Positions 444-12,430 of a stretch of DNA of 13,161 nucleotides are shown in pieces. Within the stretch, counting starts at the first letter, position 1, and each line of letters opens with the position of its first letter. The notes under the pieces are model-generated. The model had not been told where the DNA came from and made no database searches. It worked only from the letters and a program-made list of their open reading frames with translations. The DNA is taken from the NCBI GenBank assembly GCA_016871655.1, contig VHCR01000018.1:1-13161 (forward strand). Direction: 5' to 3'. This DNA comes from Verrucomicrobiota bacterium. Its GTDB lineage: Bacteria; Verrucomicrobiota; Verrucomicrobiia; Chthoniobacterales; UBA6821. The position numbers and the translations under genes were made by a program.

Positions 444-626
444 GATGCCAGGTTGTAGGAAAAGTTAGTTGAAGAAAAATATAGTGTATTAAATTGATGC
501 AGTACAAGGAGCGAGAAGCAGAGCTGAGGAGTGTATAAGTAATACTCGACGAAGGCGAGCATCACAGCGACGCAGTAATGCGCGATTTTAGCTTTTTCAA
601 GACACCCTCTAAAACGAACGGATTGC
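444..626. other. Intergenic region between convergent porin and AsmA-like genes
   Basis: About 180 bp between the porin hairpin and the heptamer array at the end of the AsmA-like gene. I see no convincing ORF, tRNA or ncRNA. The central part (about 500-600) mixes GCGA-rich words with a GATTTTAGCTTTTTCAAGACACCC string and looks like non-coding interspersed sequence, but no second copy occurs in this window. Confidence 0.4.
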
Positions 627-3046: not shown

Positions 3047-3145
3047 AATTAACCGCAAAGAAAAATATTTAAACGCAAAGAACGCAAAGAACGCAAAGAA
3101 AGAAAAATAAATTCTTTGCGTTTCTTCCGTTCTTTGCGGTTAATT
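3047..3145. repeat. Inverted array of 9-bp GAACGCAAA units between priA and the AsmA-like gene
   Basis: The outer arms AATTAACCGCAAAGAA (3047-3062) and TTCTTTGCGGTTAATT (3130-3145) are perfect complements. Inside the left arm the 9-bp unit AACGCAAAG recurs three times (about 3072-3098), and AACGCAAAGAA at 3090-3100 is matched by TTCTTTGCGTT at 3112-3122. The element starts 8 bp past the priA stop and ends 6 bp before the start of the AsmA-like gene. It could act as a terminator or attenuator, or be an inert interspersed repeat. The same unit family occurs after glgB (7859-7931). Confidence 0.8.
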
Positions 3146-3152
3146 TCTTTTT

Positions 3153-5207
3153 TTAAAGCAAAGATTGCGGATCAACATCGATGGTAGTAATAACTCCACT
3201 TGGAAAAGAAGTTTTTCGGAGAAGGGATCTAAGAATGCCTCCCATTTTTTTGACGGAGGTTCCTTTCAGTGCAATGTGGAATCGATATTGCCCATGCGCT
3301 CGCTCGAGCGGTGCCGGGACAGCCTCACCAACATCTACTGTTGAGGGCAAGGCCTGCCGTAATTCCTTTCGAAGGGCCGCCGCAGAGAAGGCGACACGTT
3401 CTTGAATTTTGCCACGGAGCTGCACCAAAATCATCCGTTGGAATGGTGGATAGCCGAACTGCTTTCTTAAGACGATTTCTTGTTCAAAAAATCCATGATA
3501 ATCATGATGCCGTGCAAATTGAATCGAAGGGCTCACCGGGGTGTAAGTTTGGATCATCACTTCTCCCTCAACATCTCCTCTCCCTGCGCGTCCTGCAACC
3601 TGGGTTAACAATTGAAACGTTCGCTCCCCAGCTCGAAAGTCAGGCGCTTGCAGGCTCGTATCGGCATTGATGATGCCGACCAAAGTCACATTAGGAAAGT
3701 CGAGGCCCTTAGCAATCATCTGCGTTCCAATAAGAATATCGATCTGCCTACTTCGAAAACGATCCAACGTTTTTTGATAAATCCCTTTTCCTTTCATTGT
3801 ATCAGTGTCCATCCGCGCTAGACGTGCTTCAGGAAACGCTTGCTGAATGGCAGCCTCAACACGCTGAGTCCCCATGCCGCGCTGCAAGAGAACAGGCTCG
3901 CGACACTCGGGACATTGTGTTAGTAATTTTTTAGTCAGACCACAAAGATGGCAGACCAGGCTGTTGCTCGTTCGATGAAACGTCAGTGCCAAACTGCAAT
4001 GCGGACATTCACAAACATATCCACATTGTTGACAAAAAAGAGAACTCGCAAATCCGCGGCGATTGAGAAAAAGAATCGTCTGTTCTGATTTTTCTAACCG
4101 CGCTGCAATGGCCTGCCGAAGAGGAAAAGAGAGAACGCCGTCGGCCTGCTTGCCCCGCGCCTGCAAGCGAAGATCGAGTACGCGCACGAGTGGCATCTTT
4201 TGATGATCAGCACGATGAGGGAGTTCGAGCAGACGATATTTTTTAATTTGAACATTGTGAAAACTCTCAATCGATGGTGTCGCGCTTCCTAAAATGATCG
4301 GACATTTTTCCAAATAAGCCCGCATCACTGCAACATCACGAGCATGATAGCGTGGCGCCTCTTCTTGCTTATAGCTTCCTTCGTGCTCTTCATCGATAAT
4401 AATGAGGCCAAGATTCTGCAACGGTGCAAAAACAGCACTGCGAGCTCCAATCGCAATCCGAGCTTCGCCTCGATGCAACCTCAGCCATTCCTCATGCCGC
4501 TCTCCTTCCGAAAGATGACTGTGCAAAACTGCGATGAGTTTCTTCCCCATGACTCTTTCGAATCGTCCGCGAAAGCGCTCCACTGTTTGTGGCGTGAGGG
4601 CAATCTCCGGAACAAGTACCAAAGCTGATCGGCCAAGCGCCAATGCTTTTTCAATGCACCTCAAATAAACTTCCGTCTTCCCGCTTCCCGTAACCCCATG
4701 CAATAAAAAAGCGAAGGGGTCAGTTCCGGATATTGCATATTTTGGTGCCAGTTCATGATATTTTTGCAATACCTCTCCAATCACGTTGACCACTCGCTCT
4801 TGATCGCTGTTCAACGTTGGCGGCGGTATTGGTAGGATTGTTTCTCCAAAAAAAAGTTCATCCTTCGCTTTTCTTTTTTTCTTAGCCTCACGAATGCTTC
4901 CTGGCAACAAGCTTCGTAGGACCGTATGCAACGGAGTCACGTAATAATCAGCCATCCATTCTGCCAACTTCATCAGTTGCGGAGAAAGCAATGGCGCCTC
5001 TTCCGAGATCAAGATGCGCGAGAGCGCCTTGATGTTGGAGAACTCACTCGAGGCTCGCAATTCCAAGACCGTTCCAAAAACTTCTTGTCGTCGCAACGGC
5101 ACGGCGACACGACTTCCCACCACAACTTTGCCTTGCAACGCTGCTGGAATTTCATAATCGAGTATCGTTCCTTCGGTACGATCAATGAGAATGTGGGCGA
5201 TGGACAT
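3153..5207 (-). CDS. priA: Primosomal protein N' (replication restart helicase PriA)
   Basis: 684 residues, in the normal range for PriA, the 3'-5' DEAH-type helicase that recognises abandoned replication forks and starts primosome reassembly. The N-terminal DNA-binding domain occupies about 1-105. Helicase motifs follow: Walker A GVTGSGKT (171-178), DEEH (272-275), GSATPS (307-312), GTQMIAKGLDFP (494-505) and QVAGRAGRG (536-544). Eight cysteines in four CxxC pairs (392/395, 401/404, 419/422, 432/435) form the two-zinc insert that PriA carries inside its helicase core. Oddity: residues 151-164 (HELAPKYAISGTDP) come from an inserted repeat arm shared with glgB. By my recollection of E. coli PriA, the stretch from LN to the Walker A motif is about 14 residues longer here, exactly the insert length. 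The start ATG at 5207 lies 8 bp from a heptamer array, and no strong ribosome site is seen. The gene is presumably functional, since all motifs are intact. Confidence 0.97.
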   Translation of the reverse strand: MSIAHILIDRTEGTILDYEIPAALQGKVVVGSRVAVPLRRQEVFGTVLELRASSEFSNIKALSRILISEEAPLLSPQLMKLAEWMADYYVTPLHTVLRSLLPGSIREAKKKRKAKDELFFGETILPIPPPTLNSDQERVVNVIGEVLQKYHELAPKYAISGTDPFAFLLHGVTGSGKTEVYLRCIEKALALGRSALVLVPEIALTPQTVERFRGRFERVMGKKLIAVLHSHLSEGERHEEWLRLHRGEARIAIGARSAVFAPLQNLGLIIIDEEHEGSYKQEEAPRYHARDVAVMRAYLEKCPIILGSATPSIESFHNVQIKKYRLLELPHRADHQKMPLVRVLDLRLQARGKQADGVLSFPLRQAIAARLEKSEQTILFLNRRGFASSLFCQQCGYVCECPHCSLALTFHRTSNSLVCHLCGLTKKLLTQCPECREPVLLQRGMGTQRVEAAIQQAFPEARLARMDTDTMKGKGIYQKTLDRFRSRQIDILIGTQMIAKGLDFPNVTLVGIINADTSLQAPDFRAGERTFQLLTQVAGRAGRGDVEGEVMIQTYTPVSPSIQFARHHDYHGFFEQEIVLRKQFGYPPFQRMILVQLRGKIQERVAFSAAALRKELRQALPSTVDVGEAVPAPLERAHGQYRFHIALKGTSVKKMGGILRSLLRKTSFPSGVITTIDVDPQSLL
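4715..4758. repeat. Half-copy of the glgB palindromic element inside priA, in frame
   Basis: These 44 bp match 10014-10057 at 39 of 44 positions, beginning AGGGGTCAGTTCCGGA and containing TGCATATTT. Only one arm plus the first part of the central loop is present; the opposite arm is missing. It lies in the same orientation relative to transcription, and in the same reading frame, as the copy in glgB. It encodes HELAPKYAISGTDP, against NEVAPKYAFSGTDP in GlgB. It ends six residues before the Walker A motif of PriA. Confidence 0.85.
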
Positions 5208-6591: not shown

Positions 6592-7231
6592 TCATTGAGC
6601 TTTTAAAAAATTCGAATAGTTGCGAACGGTTTTATACTGTGCCTTTTCCTCAGAAGAAGGTTTTGAGTCACTGTTATAGCACCTCATCCTCTGCCCTTCA
6701 TCGTTACTAAATTCTCTTATTTCTTCAAGAGCCTGAGCAAAACACACTCTCCTTGTTGCTGGCACCATTCCAGCACTTGCACCTTCCTGCAGAACCTCGC
6801 AAGAAGGCTCTGCTATTCTTTCTTGAACGGCAAGAACTCTATTGCCTCGTAACTCCACTTGACTTTCACTTGTCAATTCTGTCAAGCCCCGCCCATTCTC
6901 TTCAACATTACTTTGCTGCTCCTCTTTGTTTTTACATGTCCCTAGCCCGCAAATTTCATACTGATCCTGCTACGGCTTGCGAAACCCTGATGGATACAGC
7001 GTCAGGCTCGGATTGCTTCTCGGGCGGTATGGAGCCATACAGCCGTCGTCGCAACCCATCGCCTTCCTTGTCTGCATCAGGATTCGCGGCGCCTCGCGAC
7101 GAATCAGTATGAAATTTGCGGGCTAGTTCATCCATCACCATGAGAGGAGAAGTCTTATCCTCTTGCGCGATCGCAATAGAAACAAACAATAATCCAAAAA
7201 TGAAATAATATTTTTTCCTCAAAAAAAACAT
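6592..7231 (-). pseudogene. Secreted-protein gene interrupted by a fold-back element
   Basis: ATG at 7231 opens with a good signal peptide (MFFLRKKYYFIFGLLFVSIA, then IAQ as the likely cleavage site) and continues EDKTSPLMVMDE. At 7126 the fold-back element begins. Translation runs through it for 57 foreign codons and stops at a TGA at 6956-6958, giving a 91-residue product. Beyond the element a different frame is open from 6941 to TGA at 6592-6594 (GTCKNKEEQQSNVEENGRG and onward to YKTVRNYSNFLKAQ). Removing 181 bp, so that one CTAG copy remains, joins the halves as MDE-LG-TCKNKEE in one frame of 152 codons. This frame restoration is the main evidence that the two pieces were one gene. The gene starts 20 bp after the pilin stop and was probably co-transcribed with it. 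The restored protein has no family I recognise; it is hydrophilic and Glu/Ser-rich. A truncated secreted peptide may still be made. Confidence 0.7.
6942..7126. mobile_element. MITE-like fold-back element, 185 bp, with 24-bp perfect terminal inverted repeats
   Basis: The left end, CTAGCCCGCAAATTTCATAC followed by TGAT (6942-6965), is the exact reverse complement of the right end (7103-7126). Interior halves also pair imperfectly (GCGAAACCCTGATG against GCGAATCCTGATG), and the centre is GTATGG-AG-CCATAC (7027-7040), so the whole element can fold into one long hairpin. It is too short for a transposase and has none. CTAG at both outer ends may be a 4-bp target duplication, leaving a core of 6946-7122. 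Its insertion accounts for the disruption of the surrounding gene. These are the features of a non-autonomous element moved in trans by a transposase elsewhere. The parent family cannot be named from the ends alone. Confidence 0.8.
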
Positions 7232-7858: not shown

Positions 7859-7931
7859 AAAATAGCCGAAAAAGAACACAAAGAGCGCAAAGAATATTTT
7901 TTGATTTCTTTGTGCCCTTTGTGGCTAATTT
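7859..7931. repeat. Inverted array of 9-bp units 3' of glgB (second copy of the family after priA)
   Basis: The left arm has units GAACACAAA and GAGCGCAAA followed by GAA (about 7874-7894). The right arm, read in reverse complement, is AATTAGCCACAAAGGGCACA followed by AAGAA (7906-7931). The ends AATAGCC and GGCTAATT also pair. The unit G(A/G)(A/G)C(A/G)CAAA matches GAACGCAAA at 3047-3145. The element sits 4 bp past the glgB stop and 7 bp before the pilin start, the same position between co-directional genes as the copy after priA. Confidence 0.75.
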
Positions 7932-7935
7932 CTTT

Positions 7936-10332
7936 TTACGGAACTTTTAAATAGAGTGTGGAGAGAGGAGGTAGGTCTATCACAATCGAATTCCAAAAGC
8001 GATGAGAATGTTGATGATCAGCATCAACGGCAGGAGGAAGATAGTGTCCGCTTCCTCCAAAACAACCGGCGTCACTATTGAAAATAATTTCATACTTCCC
8101 ATCACGAGGAACACCGAGCCGATAGTTGTAGCGGGGCACCGGCGTGGCATTAACCACGACAAGAATGTCGTGGCAGTTGAAGTGACTAGTTGAAGTCGAA
8201 GAATCTAATTTTTTCGATGGCTTCTTCACTTCATCTTCACCTTTTAACTTCATCTCTTGCGGAATCGCCGTTAACGGCGACTTACGCAAAAATGACCAAA
8301 CGGTATTTTCATTGTCATTAAAATCAATCCATTCAAATCCAGCGGACTCATCGTCGCATTGCCAAAAAGCAGGCTCTTGTTGATAGAGTCTGTTGAGCTC
8401 CTTGACAAGGAGCTGCATTCCTTGATGCGGCGCGTATTGCAAGAGATGCCAATCGAGGCTCTGCGTGTGATTCCACTCACGCCATTGCGCAATCTCTCCG
8501 CCTTGAAATAATAATTTTTTTCCAGGGTGCCCCCACATCCATGCAAAGAAGAAGCGGAGGTTCGCGAATTTTTGCCAATCATCTTCGGGCATTTTGTTGA
8601 TCAGCGATCCTTTGCCGTGCGTTACTTCGTCGTGGCTTAAAACGAGGATGAAATGTTCGTGATAGGCGTAGAGCATCGAGAAGGTGATATCGCCTTGATG
8701 ATACTTGCGATGAATCGGCGAGCGGCTGATATAGCGCAGCGAATCATTCATCCATCCCATGTTCCATTTAAAACCAAAACCAAGACCGCCATCGTACGTC
8801 GGCTTGGAAACAGCTGGCCAGGCCGTTGACTCCTCCGCAATCATCATGATGCCAGGATGGCGCGCGTAGCAGATTTCGTTGCAGCTTTTGATAAAATCGA
8901 CTGCTTCGAGATTTTCGCGACCGCCAAAAATATTCGGCGTCCATTCTCCCGCCTTGCGCGAATAGTCGAGGTAGAGCATCGAGGCGACCGCATCGACGCG
9001 CAATCCATCGATGTGATATTCCGAAAACCAATAGAGCGCATTGGCGATAAGAAAATTCCGAACCTCGTTTCGTCCGTAATTGAAAATGAGCGTGCCCCAA
9101 TCGCGATGCTCAGCGCGATTCGGATCGTCATGCTCATAGAGAGCCGTCCCATCAAATTGTGCAAGCCCATGAGCATCACGAGGGAAATGGCCCGGCACCC
9201 AATCGAGAATTACGCCAATGCCTGCTTGATGAAGGCGATCGACGAGATGGCGAAAATCATCCGGCTTTCCAAAGCGACTGCTCGGCGCAAAAAAATTCAC
9301 GACTTGATATCCCCAGGAGCCTTCAAACGGATGCTCCATCACCGGCATGAATTCTACATGCGTGAATCCCATTTCTTTGACGTAGTCCACCAATTGATCG
9401 GCAAGCTCGAGATAGCTGAGCGGACGATTGTTTTCTTCCGGTATCCGCCGCCACGAACCGAGATGTACTTCATAAATCGACATCGGCCGACGATATCGAT
9501 CTACACTCGCTCGTGAAGCCATCCAGTCTTGATCACTCCATTGATAGCGCCCGAGATCATAGATCATGCAGGCCGTGCGAAGATCATGCTGCGCGAAGAT
9601 CCCATACGGATCGGTTTTTAAAAAAAGATCACCGTGCGGTCCGCGAATTTCAAATTTGTAATGCGCGCCCTCGCGAACTTCTGGAATAAAAATTTCCCAG
9701 ACACCCGAAGAGCCAAGCCGGCGCATCATGTGAAAGCGCCCATCCCAATTATTAAAATCACCAACCACGCTGACCCGCTGCGCATTCGGTGCCCAGACCG
9801 CAAAGCAAGTCCCCGTCACGCTTCCAACAGTGCGTGGATGCGCTCCGAGATGCTGGTAAATTTCCCAGTGCCGTCCCTCCGCATGCAAGTAAAGATCGAG
9901 ATCTCCTATCTGCGGTCCAAATGCATACGGATCATGCAACGATTTTTTGTTTCCATTCGCATCGATAATCTCAAGAACATAGGCTGGATCGCCGTCTTCG
10001 CTCGGACAAGAATAGGGGTCAGTTCCGGAGAATGCATATTTCGGTGCCACTTCATTAGATTTCTTATGGACTGACCCCGAAATATGCATTCTCCGGAACT
10101 GACCCCTATTTATAACGAGTTCAAATAAGCCTCGCTCGTCGACACAGGGCAATTGAAATTCTCCCCACGTTGCTTTCCACTTTACGCCCTGCGCTCCTGG
10201 ATGCCAAACGCGTAGAACGACCTCGGATGCCGAAAGCGGATGGATCCCCAACAACCGATGCGGATCGCTGTGACGGAGTTCAAACAGCGGGTAGAGATCG
10301 TTGTCGGGAAGTTGGGATTTTTTTGAGATCAT
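7936..10332 (-). CDS. glgB: 1,4-alpha-glucan branching enzyme
   Basis: 798 residues. GlgB makes the alpha-1,6 branch points in glycogen. An N-terminal extension domain (about 1-135) is followed by the CBM48 carbohydrate-binding domain (about 165-255, CFAVWAPNAQRVSVVGDFN), the GH13 barrel (about 285-650) and a C-terminal beta domain. Catalytic residues are the nucleophile D447 in DGLRVDAV, the acid/base E500 in IAEEST and D568 in LSHDEVTHGKG. Other family signatures are YEVHLGSW (287-294), GFTHVEFMP and GHPGKKLLFQGGE. It is longer than the usual ~730 residues because of two apparent in-frame insertions: residues 75-107, encoded by a 100-bp palindrome, and about 30 Lys/Ser-rich residues (about 688-717) before the conserved VVVNATPVPRYNYR segment. 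Both avoid the active site, so the enzyme is probably functional. No other glg gene is in the window. ATG at 10332 has a GAGG about 13 bp upstream. It is divergent from the 620-aa orphan, with 45 bp between them. Confidence 0.97.
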   Translation of the reverse strand: MISKKSQLPDNDLYPLFELRHSDPHRLLGIHPLSASEVVLRVWHPGAQGVKWKATWGEFQLPCVDERGLFELVINRGQFRRMHISGSVHKKSNEVAPKYAFSGTDPYSCPSEDGDPAYVLEIIDANGNKKSLHDPYAFGPQIGDLDLYLHAEGRHWEIYQHLGAHPRTVGSVTGTCFAVWAPNAQRVSVVGDFNNWDGRFHMMRRLGSSGVWEIFIPEVREGAHYKFEIRGPHGDLFLKTDPYGIFAQHDLRTACMIYDLGRYQWSDQDWMASRASVDRYRRPMSIYEVHLGSWRRIPEENNRPLSYLELADQLVDYVKEMGFTHVEFMPVMEHPFEGSWGYQVVNFFAPSSRFGKPDDFRHLVDRLHQAGIGVILDWVPGHFPRDAHGLAQFDGTALYEHDDPNRAEHRDWGTLIFNYGRNEVRNFLIANALYWFSEYHIDGLRVDAVASMLYLDYSRKAGEWTPNIFGGRENLEAVDFIKSCNEICYARHPGIMMIAEESTAWPAVSKPTYDGGLGFGFKWNMGWMNDSLRYISRSPIHRKYHQGDITFSMLYAYHEHFILVLSHDEVTHGKGSLINKMPEDDWQKFANLRFFFAWMWGHPGKKLLFQGGEIAQWREWNHTQSLDWHLLQYAPHQGMQLLVKELNRLYQQEPAFWQCDDESAGFEWIDFNDNENTVWSFLRKSPLTAIPQEMKLKGEDEVKKPSKKLDSSTSTSHFNCHDILVVVNATPVPRYNYRLGVPRDGKYEIIFNSDAGCFGGSGHYLPPAVDADHQHSHRFWNSIVIDLPPLSTLYLKVP
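8176..8248. repeat. Imperfect palindrome inside glgB encoding a Lys/Ser-rich linker
   Basis: On the + strand GTTGAAGTGACTAGTTGAAG plus TCGAAGAA (8176-8203) faces CTTCTTCACTTCATCTTCAC plus CTTTTAAC (8221-8248), with a T-rich loop between. The best-paired part is TGAAGT(C)GAAGAA. It encodes about residues 695-720 of GlgB (KLKGEDEVKKPSKKL then DSSTSTSHFNC), a stretch with no counterpart in the usual GlgB C-terminal domain. The GTTGAAGT word is close to the 8-bp GTTGAAGC unit of the intergenic array at 12350-12430. Confidence 0.5.
10011..10110. repeat. 100-bp coding palindrome within glgB (34-bp perfect arms)
   Basis: 10011-10044 (AATAGGGGTCAGTTCCGGAG followed by AATGCATATTTCGG) is the exact reverse complement of 10077-10110, with a 32-nt loop between. 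The whole element is translated without a stop: on the glgB strand the first arm reads NRGQFRRMHISG and the second APKYAFSGTDPY. A third GGGGTCAG core starts in the loop next to the inner edge of the right arm. One arm plus part of the loop recurs in priA (4715-4758). At about 99 bp the element adds 33 whole codons (residues 75-107). The GGGGTCAG/CTGACCCC core resembles palindromic REP-like repeats that I recall from other bacteria; no transposase for it is present here. Confidence 0.9.
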
Positions 10333-12349: not shown

Positions 12350-12430
12350 GTTGAAATGTTGAAGCGTTGAAACGTTGAAGAAGTTTTCCATTGCTGCCCT
12401 TTCAACGCTTCAACGCTTCAACGTTTCAAC
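12350..12430. terminator. Inverted array of 8-bp GTTGAARN units; candidate bidirectional terminator hairpin
   Basis: Four units on the left (GTTGAAAT, GTTGAAGC, GTTGAAAC, GTTGAAGA; 12350-12381) face four on the right (CTTTCAAC, GCTTCAAC, GCTTCAAC, GTTTCAAC; 12399-12430) across a 17-nt loop. About 28 of 32 positions pair. It lies between two convergent genes, which fits a bidirectional terminator or 3'-end barrier, although no T-run follows. Structurally it matches the other short-unit inverted arrays of the window but with a different unit. Confidence 0.6.

Follow-up and report, generated by a model that had tools for sequence, protein, structure and literature searches.

Short mobile repeats mostly sit in the gaps between genes. 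How has a long palindrome then come to lie inside glgB, the gene of a conserved enzyme, in a Verrucomicrobiota bacterium? It is very probably a non-autonomous doublet whose units are terminal inverted repeats belonging to a Y1 transposase gene of the same genome: a minority of these elements is tolerated in genes and read in frame.

The palindrome in the glgB gene

The window which we have analysed is a stretch of 13,161 nt, contig C18 of a draft genome (1.80 Mb in 350 contigs, 86.7% complete) which we call G000. The congener genomes with which it is compared, G001–G005, are also drafts. The glgB reading frame occupies positions 7936–10332 of the minus strand and codes for 798 amino acids; its product has the Pfam domains CBM_48, Alpha-amylase, GlgB_N and Alpha-amylase_C. 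The palindrome, at 10011–10110, has perfect arms of 34 bp and a loop of 32 nt: the coding strand folds into 34 uninterrupted pairs enclosing a 32-nt interior, at −73.1 kcal/mol versus −24.1 ± 3.2 for shuffled sequences (z −15.6; none of 200 dinucleotide shuffles was equally stable). A repeat search of the window gives longer arms, 10011–10059 and 10062–10110, of 49 nt with 90% complementarity. No stop codon appears in the glgB frame across the palindrome. All this agrees with the original prediction, which was made from the sequence alone. Its estimate of 33 added residues is approximate: by coordinates the palindrome corresponds to codons 75–108, and the net gain with respect to the empty gene of G004 is 93 nt (165 vs 72 nt between the same flanks). 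The features of the window are the following:

10011..10110, minus strand: doublet, head to head, in frame in glgB (codons 75–108), translation NRGQFRRMHISGSVHKKSNEVAPKYAFSGTDPY
10011..10057, plus strand: first unit of the doublet, 54.0 bits against the unit profile
10065..10110, minus strand: second unit of the doublet, 48.7 bits, with an inner part GGGGTCAGTCC where other units have GGTGCCA
4714..4758, plus strand: single unit, in frame in priA, HELAPKYAISGTDPF on the strand of the gene; absent from PriA of G004 and G005
7936..10332, minus strand: glgB, 1,4-alpha-glucan branching enzyme, host of the doublet (from reading frame and Pfam)
3153..5207, minus strand: priA, primosomal helicase, host of the single unit (from reading frame and domain families)

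GlgB was matched in 76 of 77 genomes, and 14 relatives with loci returned were aligned. As the original prediction had expected, the segment is absent in relatives: 13 of the 14 lack it, and the last one, G005, has a different palindrome there. Among the matches listed, the best three named are Verrucomicrobia MAGs (53–57%). The length of this N-terminal loop varies among GlgB relatives, and one could think of an ordinary, fast-evolving protein sequence in which the palindrome is incidental. The stability of the fold and the empty relatives speak against it, and the same DNA is present at more than 20 other sites; these copies refute such a reading, which is so improbable that it can be set aside.

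An AlphaFold model of GlgB (22 sequences) has a mean pLDDT of 76.7, with residues 83–115 below 50. This stretch lies between strands 69–75 and 119–123 of the N-terminal part and is preceded by a short predicted helix, 76–84. According to the model the insert would be a loop of the kind which tolerates insertion, probably disordered.

Some other peculiarities of the window should be mentioned. GlgB has a second insert, residues ~687–721 (window ~8170–8275), which is missing or much shorter in the seven relatives shown. We considered it as a further copy and rejected it, since neither the unit profile nor RPE1-like DNA matched there. PriA of G000 (3153–5207) is without about 70 residues after position 115 which are present in G001, G003, G004 and G005. 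Other repeats are a 67-nt intergenic one of the type AAAGAACGCAAAG (3086–3152 and 7871–7937), an inverted repeat GTTGAAACGTTGAA at 12350–12430 and a perfect 24-nt inverted repeat with a 137-nt spacer (6942–6965 and 7103–7126). No Rfam family matched the window at its gathering score.

The repeat family

The repeat unit has about 47 nt: it is formed by GGGGTCRGTYCC, a variable core and GGTGCCA, roughly AAAAGGGGTCRGTTCCRGATAWTGCATATTTTGGTGCCAGTTCATKA. Units are found single, in tandem or head to head; in three genomes the doublets often have 88 nt between their two GGGG starts. We iterated a profile built from the arm on 25 stretches of G000, namely the window plus 24 fetched pieces; at E ≤ 0.02 it detects 34 units, distributed over 24 sites. 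A unit in C74, with only 13 bits, probably belongs to another family. In the whole genome the doublet has 39 BLAST matches at E ≤ 10, and a 24-mer with up to three mismatches is found in 35 places, its reversed pattern in none. The expectation of a repeated, gene-tolerant family of palindromes is thus borne out by copies in and outside genes, including the one in priA in the same window, which had been missed.

The end GGGGTCRGTNCC is frequent in three genomes of the genus: 40 copies in G000, 34 in G004 and 31 in G005, with none in G001 and G002, one in G003 and at most one per genome for a reversed control. Single units fold no better than their shuffles (six out of six from three genomes, z −0.16 to +1.38). 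Strictly speaking they are therefore no REPs; what is palindromic is the doublet. No target-site duplication was resolved at the sites, the flanks of which differ by indels, and no target consensus for insertion was found. As a side observation, the FADP repeats of AroA (C177, L148:3265-3330) are encoded by tandem 12-nt copies of the element end.

Copies inside genes

We have listed 71 sites, 25 in G000, 27 in G004 and 19 in G005; 16 of them are in the interior of genes. The list is not exhaustive: it leaves aside the 53-nt palindromes described below, G004 C49:68475, the weak C74 unit, a single place in G003, the G000 places with other cores (C16, C23, C29 and the C75 transposase flanks) and a filled site of G004 C52 near 43300. 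Sites at the ends of reading frames are not counted as interior: kdsA in the three genomes, the HTH reading frame of C27, those of C2 and C9, and G005 C151:6780. The 16 copies correspond to 11 distinct genes:

G000: AroA, PriA, GlgB, Methyltransf_28, F5/8, ResB
G004: PT-repeat protein, BNR protein, HemC, AroA, RibD, permease
G005: BNR protein, F5/8, GlgB, RibD

Empty relatives have been seen for four of these 11 genes, to which the comparison was confined. Besides GlgB, the unit of PriA is absent in G004 and G005. In the F5/8-type protein G004 and G001–G003 have an empty site, and so do G005, G003 and G002 in the Methyltransf_28 protein.

All 16 copies use the same frame. The translation of their 3' end is ...GTDP, with the exceptions of GTDS (GlgB of G005) and GTDF (ResB). 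The arm had been predicted to be open in the needed frame on both strands. This holds for one frame, open in 61 of the 70 units meeting the pattern, but the other two frames of the coding strand have a stop in 14 of the 16 copies; the exceptions are PriA and the PT-repeat protein, each with one further open frame. The in-gene copies were picked by a spanning reading frame, a procedure in which openness is partly built in and broken host genes are overlooked. In C9 a reading frame ends inside a unit, near the contig end, and it may be such a broken gene.

The open frame was considered as proof of selection and rejected as such. Doublets are open on at least one strand in 11 out of 11 coding cases versus two out of eight others (Fisher p 0.001), a contrast which is partly circular because reading frames defined the coding class. 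For single units the contrast, 19/19 versus 42/51, is not significant (p 0.10). In G000 only six of the 25 sites are in gene interiors, with a binomial probability of 1.3e-7 for an assumed coding share of 75%. The family does occur in genes, yet gene interiors are disfavoured and not neutral ground.

Could selection have kept the insert because it serves the host protein or the mRNA, for example as a regulatory hairpin in glgB? The nearly perfect arms and the in-frame reading would agree with it. A recent insertion would also give perfect arms, as would the replacement of an old copy discussed below; the presence of the element in eleven different host genes and the low confidence of the model over the insert also make a selected function improbable. 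We see no sign of a benefit to the enzyme, and tolerance is the simplest reading.

The transposase and the kdsA gene

The original prediction proposed a search for a Y1 or RAYT-type transposase. G000 has two genes with Y1_Tnp (PF01797) above the Pfam cut-off, at two loci. The gene in C100 is intact and codes for 320 amino acids (Y1_Tnp 41.4 bits, cut-off 23; NCBIfam REP_Tyr_transpos 43.2 bits, cut-off 80). It is flanked by units: two upstream, both on the plus strand (1306–1400), and one with opposite orientation at its 3' end (2433–2479, minus). The gene in C75 has its own variant, with another core, on both sides. At E ≤ 1e-20 relatives of the C100 transposase are present in G004 and G005; none is found in G001–G003 or in the six sister-genus genomes which were searched. 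The carriers are the same three of the six genus genomes in which the end GGGGTCRGTNCC is frequent. Four transposase loci were examined in three less closely related genomes of the order: three of them have inverted GGGGTCRG ends on both sides, the fourth only upstream. Among 50,697 phage records there was only one weak, partial match.

The 3' end of the transposase gene has a further peculiarity. In G000 its stop codon TGA and the first ATG of kdsA overlap (ATGA; L145:2400-2500), and this ATG is within the unit C100:2433-2479. In G005 the transposase 3' end, the unit and kdsA are on one contig, C146; here too the kdsA frame has its first ATG within the unit, in a different unit frame. This first ATG is also within a unit in G004, again in a different unit frame from G000; there the contig ends in the repeat, and matching ends suggest that kdsA joins the transposase contig. 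In G001 and G003 the FILGPCVIEG of KdsA is preceded by other residues. To judge from the sequences, the repeat unit would supply a candidate start codon for kdsA, the first ATG of its frame, at the end of the transposase gene.

A doublet of this kind would be non-autonomous and mobilised by the resident transposase, a Y1 enzyme, IS200-like, of the TIRYT/RAYT type. By analogy with its class, it probably spreads as a single-stranded hairpin intermediate which the transposase cuts and joins. Most listed copies are outside gene interiors; the minority inside proteins would survive where the inserted length and the frame keep the host gene open. In GlgB the element would now be read, apparently without harm, as about 30 extra residues, probably in a disordered loop.

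Same site, different core

Several sites are filled in more than one species, as judged from orthologous flanks: GlgB and F5/8 in G000 and G005, AroA in G000 and G004, BNR and RibD in G004 and G005. The same is true of sites at gene borders. We have kept the pairs judged orthologous and dropped those in which a single flank matched or the matching flanks were distant (examples are G000 C27 and C227, or G004 C52 and G005 C29). The cores at orthologous sites have an identity of 0.44–0.67 in all 11 comparisons which include G000 (eight G000 sites), whereas the within-genome median best identity of the same eight sites is 0.83–0.94. Exceptions with other cores in G000 are C7 and the ResB copy (C63). 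In G004 and G005 several cores coexist, with within-genome medians of 0.56–0.94; homogenisation of the core appears clear in G000 only.

Two sites are filled in all three genomes with the same left junction and different cores. One is at the 3' end of a gene for a membrane protein (C2:17231-17704), the other in the interval between an lpxC-like and an rluD-like gene, where G005 has a single unit whose far end is degenerate. The labels lpxC-like, rluD-like, radC-like, ParA-like and "membrane protein" are presumptive, assigned from the appearance of the sequences. In the tree G004 and G005 form a sister pair (support 0.98–1.0). Their cores are identical (1.0) at kdsA and upstream of the transposase and nearly so at C53/C91 (0.94); they differ at BNR (0.56), at lpxC-rluD (0.61) and less so at RibD (0.83), with two further pairs unscored. 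At GlgB and F5/8 an element is present in G000 and G005, and G004 has empty sites.

Two processes can be considered, and neither accounts for the whole pattern. The sites may be old and their element overwritten by the currently amplified variant, either through ectopic gene conversion or through a new action of the transposase on the conserved ends. Such re-arming, to which we give close to an even chance, agrees with the two sites filled in three genomes and with the difference between orthologous and within-genome identities in G000. Partial units may be its intermediates: they are stacked at other units in C100 and C32, there at the GGGG end, and in G005 C41 and C29, and the transposase locus of G005 has a partial type-C unit next to one of type B; the stacked ones could also be due to replication slippage. 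There is a precedent in the "orthoswitch", the presence of different REP classes at orthologous RAYTs, where, in the accessible text of the report, older variants may in part give way to new ones (PMC3686654). The sisters G004 and G005 fit less well. They differ at GlgB and F5/8, where retention then needs a clean loss in G004, they have kept their cores at kdsA, upstream of the transposase and at C53/C91, and they have coexisting cores; C7 and ResB are exceptions in G000 itself.

The distribution of the GlgB and F5/8 sites on the tree is better understood if insertion has occurred repeatedly and independently into preferred, tolerated targets, an explanation which we rate somewhat below an even chance. 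The 5' boundaries in AroA, which differ between G000 and G004, point in the same direction, and different REPs have been found at about the same recB site in two Xanthomonas species (PMC3733652). Repeated insertion would need a strong target specificity, given the identical left junctions at two sites in three genomes and the GCCAAGGGG...CCCCTTGGC ends which the F5/8 copies have in common; no target consensus has been found. Two host genes shared between six and four, among an assumed 1700 genes, have a chance of 6e-5, which rejects a random choice and not specificity. Tentatively, and with more doubt than belief, the coding sites could be lasting docking sites, in which peptide and arms are repeatedly replaced with the current core cognate to the transposase while the frame is kept, the transposase being tied to the essential kdsA, whose start codon it would supply.

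Relationship with known repeats

By its ends and its flanked Y1 gene the family appears to fit the TIR/TIRYT class, being neither classic REP nor RPE1. The motif GGGGWSAS is common to the terminal inverted repeats of "TIRYT" genes, or "TIRtrons" (PMC3733652, section 16). In our family it takes the form GGGGTCRG: many units have GGGGTCAG, and the variant GGGGTCGG is off at one position. In both cases a Y1 tyrosine transposase lies between inverted repeats, dimers or clusters are found and a flanking repeat overlaps the transposase gene (PMC3733652). The in-gene cases of section 15 of that paper are GTAG and CGTC REPs, whereas ours are TIR-class repeats; sections 15–16 do not describe TIRs as coding in frame, and their case of different repeats at the same site (recB) concerns REPs. 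We found no TIR-class repeats described as coding in the open-access literature, a weak negative. "Intragenic" and "RAYT" have no match in the accessible text of RepRanger (PMC12306157).

A classic REP was rejected: the consensus starts with (A)GGGGTC and has no GTAG or CGTC tag, and there is no palindrome within the unit (six out of six). The O. terrae of the next sentence is presumably Opitutus terrae. In-gene, in-frame REPs are known in several species, with the richest cases in O. terrae (GTAG) and in R. conorii (CGTC) (PMC3733652, section 15), so that the view that REP-like elements are normally intergenic, on which the original prediction relied, is right as a tendency and too strict as a rule. 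As far as the accessible text of the reports on REPIN/RAYT systems goes (PMC3116915, PMC2817692, PMC3686654), these systems are alike in the inverted copies which flank the transposase gene, in the inverted doublets which form hairpins and in the orthoswitch. Our family shares the hairpin of two inverted units; it differs by the lack of a GTAG-type end and of a palindrome within the unit, by far fewer copies and by a larger share in genes. A place outside genes belongs to the definition of REPINs, and here 16 of the 71 listed sites are assigned to gene interiors; in SBW25, according to the same accessible text, 14 of 1,067 16-mers overlap genes (PMC3116915, PMC2817692, PMC3686654).

The parallel drawn with the palindromic elements of Rickettsia (RPE) is valid for in-frame insertion in unrelated genes, read as a conserved peptide; in the accessible part of their description they differ by another sequence and a size of about 150 bp (PMC10969869). 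It does not extend to identity with RPE1: two RPE1-like peptides gave no tblastn match in GlgB, and RPE1 (TIGR01045) is not among the 25 families, out of 28, listed for GlgB.

Other palindromes in the genus

Another palindromic family of the genus is distinct from the one described; it is about 145 nt long, and its translation matches NCBIfam RPE1 (TIGR01045; best score 38.7 bits in G002, cut-off 30). It is found in the window (495–583), in L296, and in frame in RibD of G004 (L264:1590-2810) and in reading frames of 745 and 669 amino acids (L301, L303). At E ≤ 0.001 it is present in four of the six genus genomes, in none of 68 others of the family or order and in none of 14 controls; at E ≤ 10 five of the 14 controls match, none above the cut-off. 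A further palindrome, GGGGTCAGTACC...GGGACTGACC, is shorter, with about 53 nt (L249, L252, L253, L259, L275, L280, L286). Some copies are in open frames, and those at G004 C27:3288 and G005 C43:38965 are in apparently the same gene.

Significance

Part of what we describe is already known: in-frame REPs (PMC3733652) and, from the accessible text of the respective reports, the orthoswitch (PMC3686654) and in-frame RPEs (PMC10969869). Less expected are the differing cores at orthologous sites, both coding and intergenic, and the unit which holds the first ATG of kdsA. In one genus, repeats linked to a transposase would become protein sequence in conserved enzymes, AroA, GlgB, PriA, HemC and RibD among them. 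The filled and empty states of the sites and their differing cores in close species make type switching of REP-like families directly testable across the genome.
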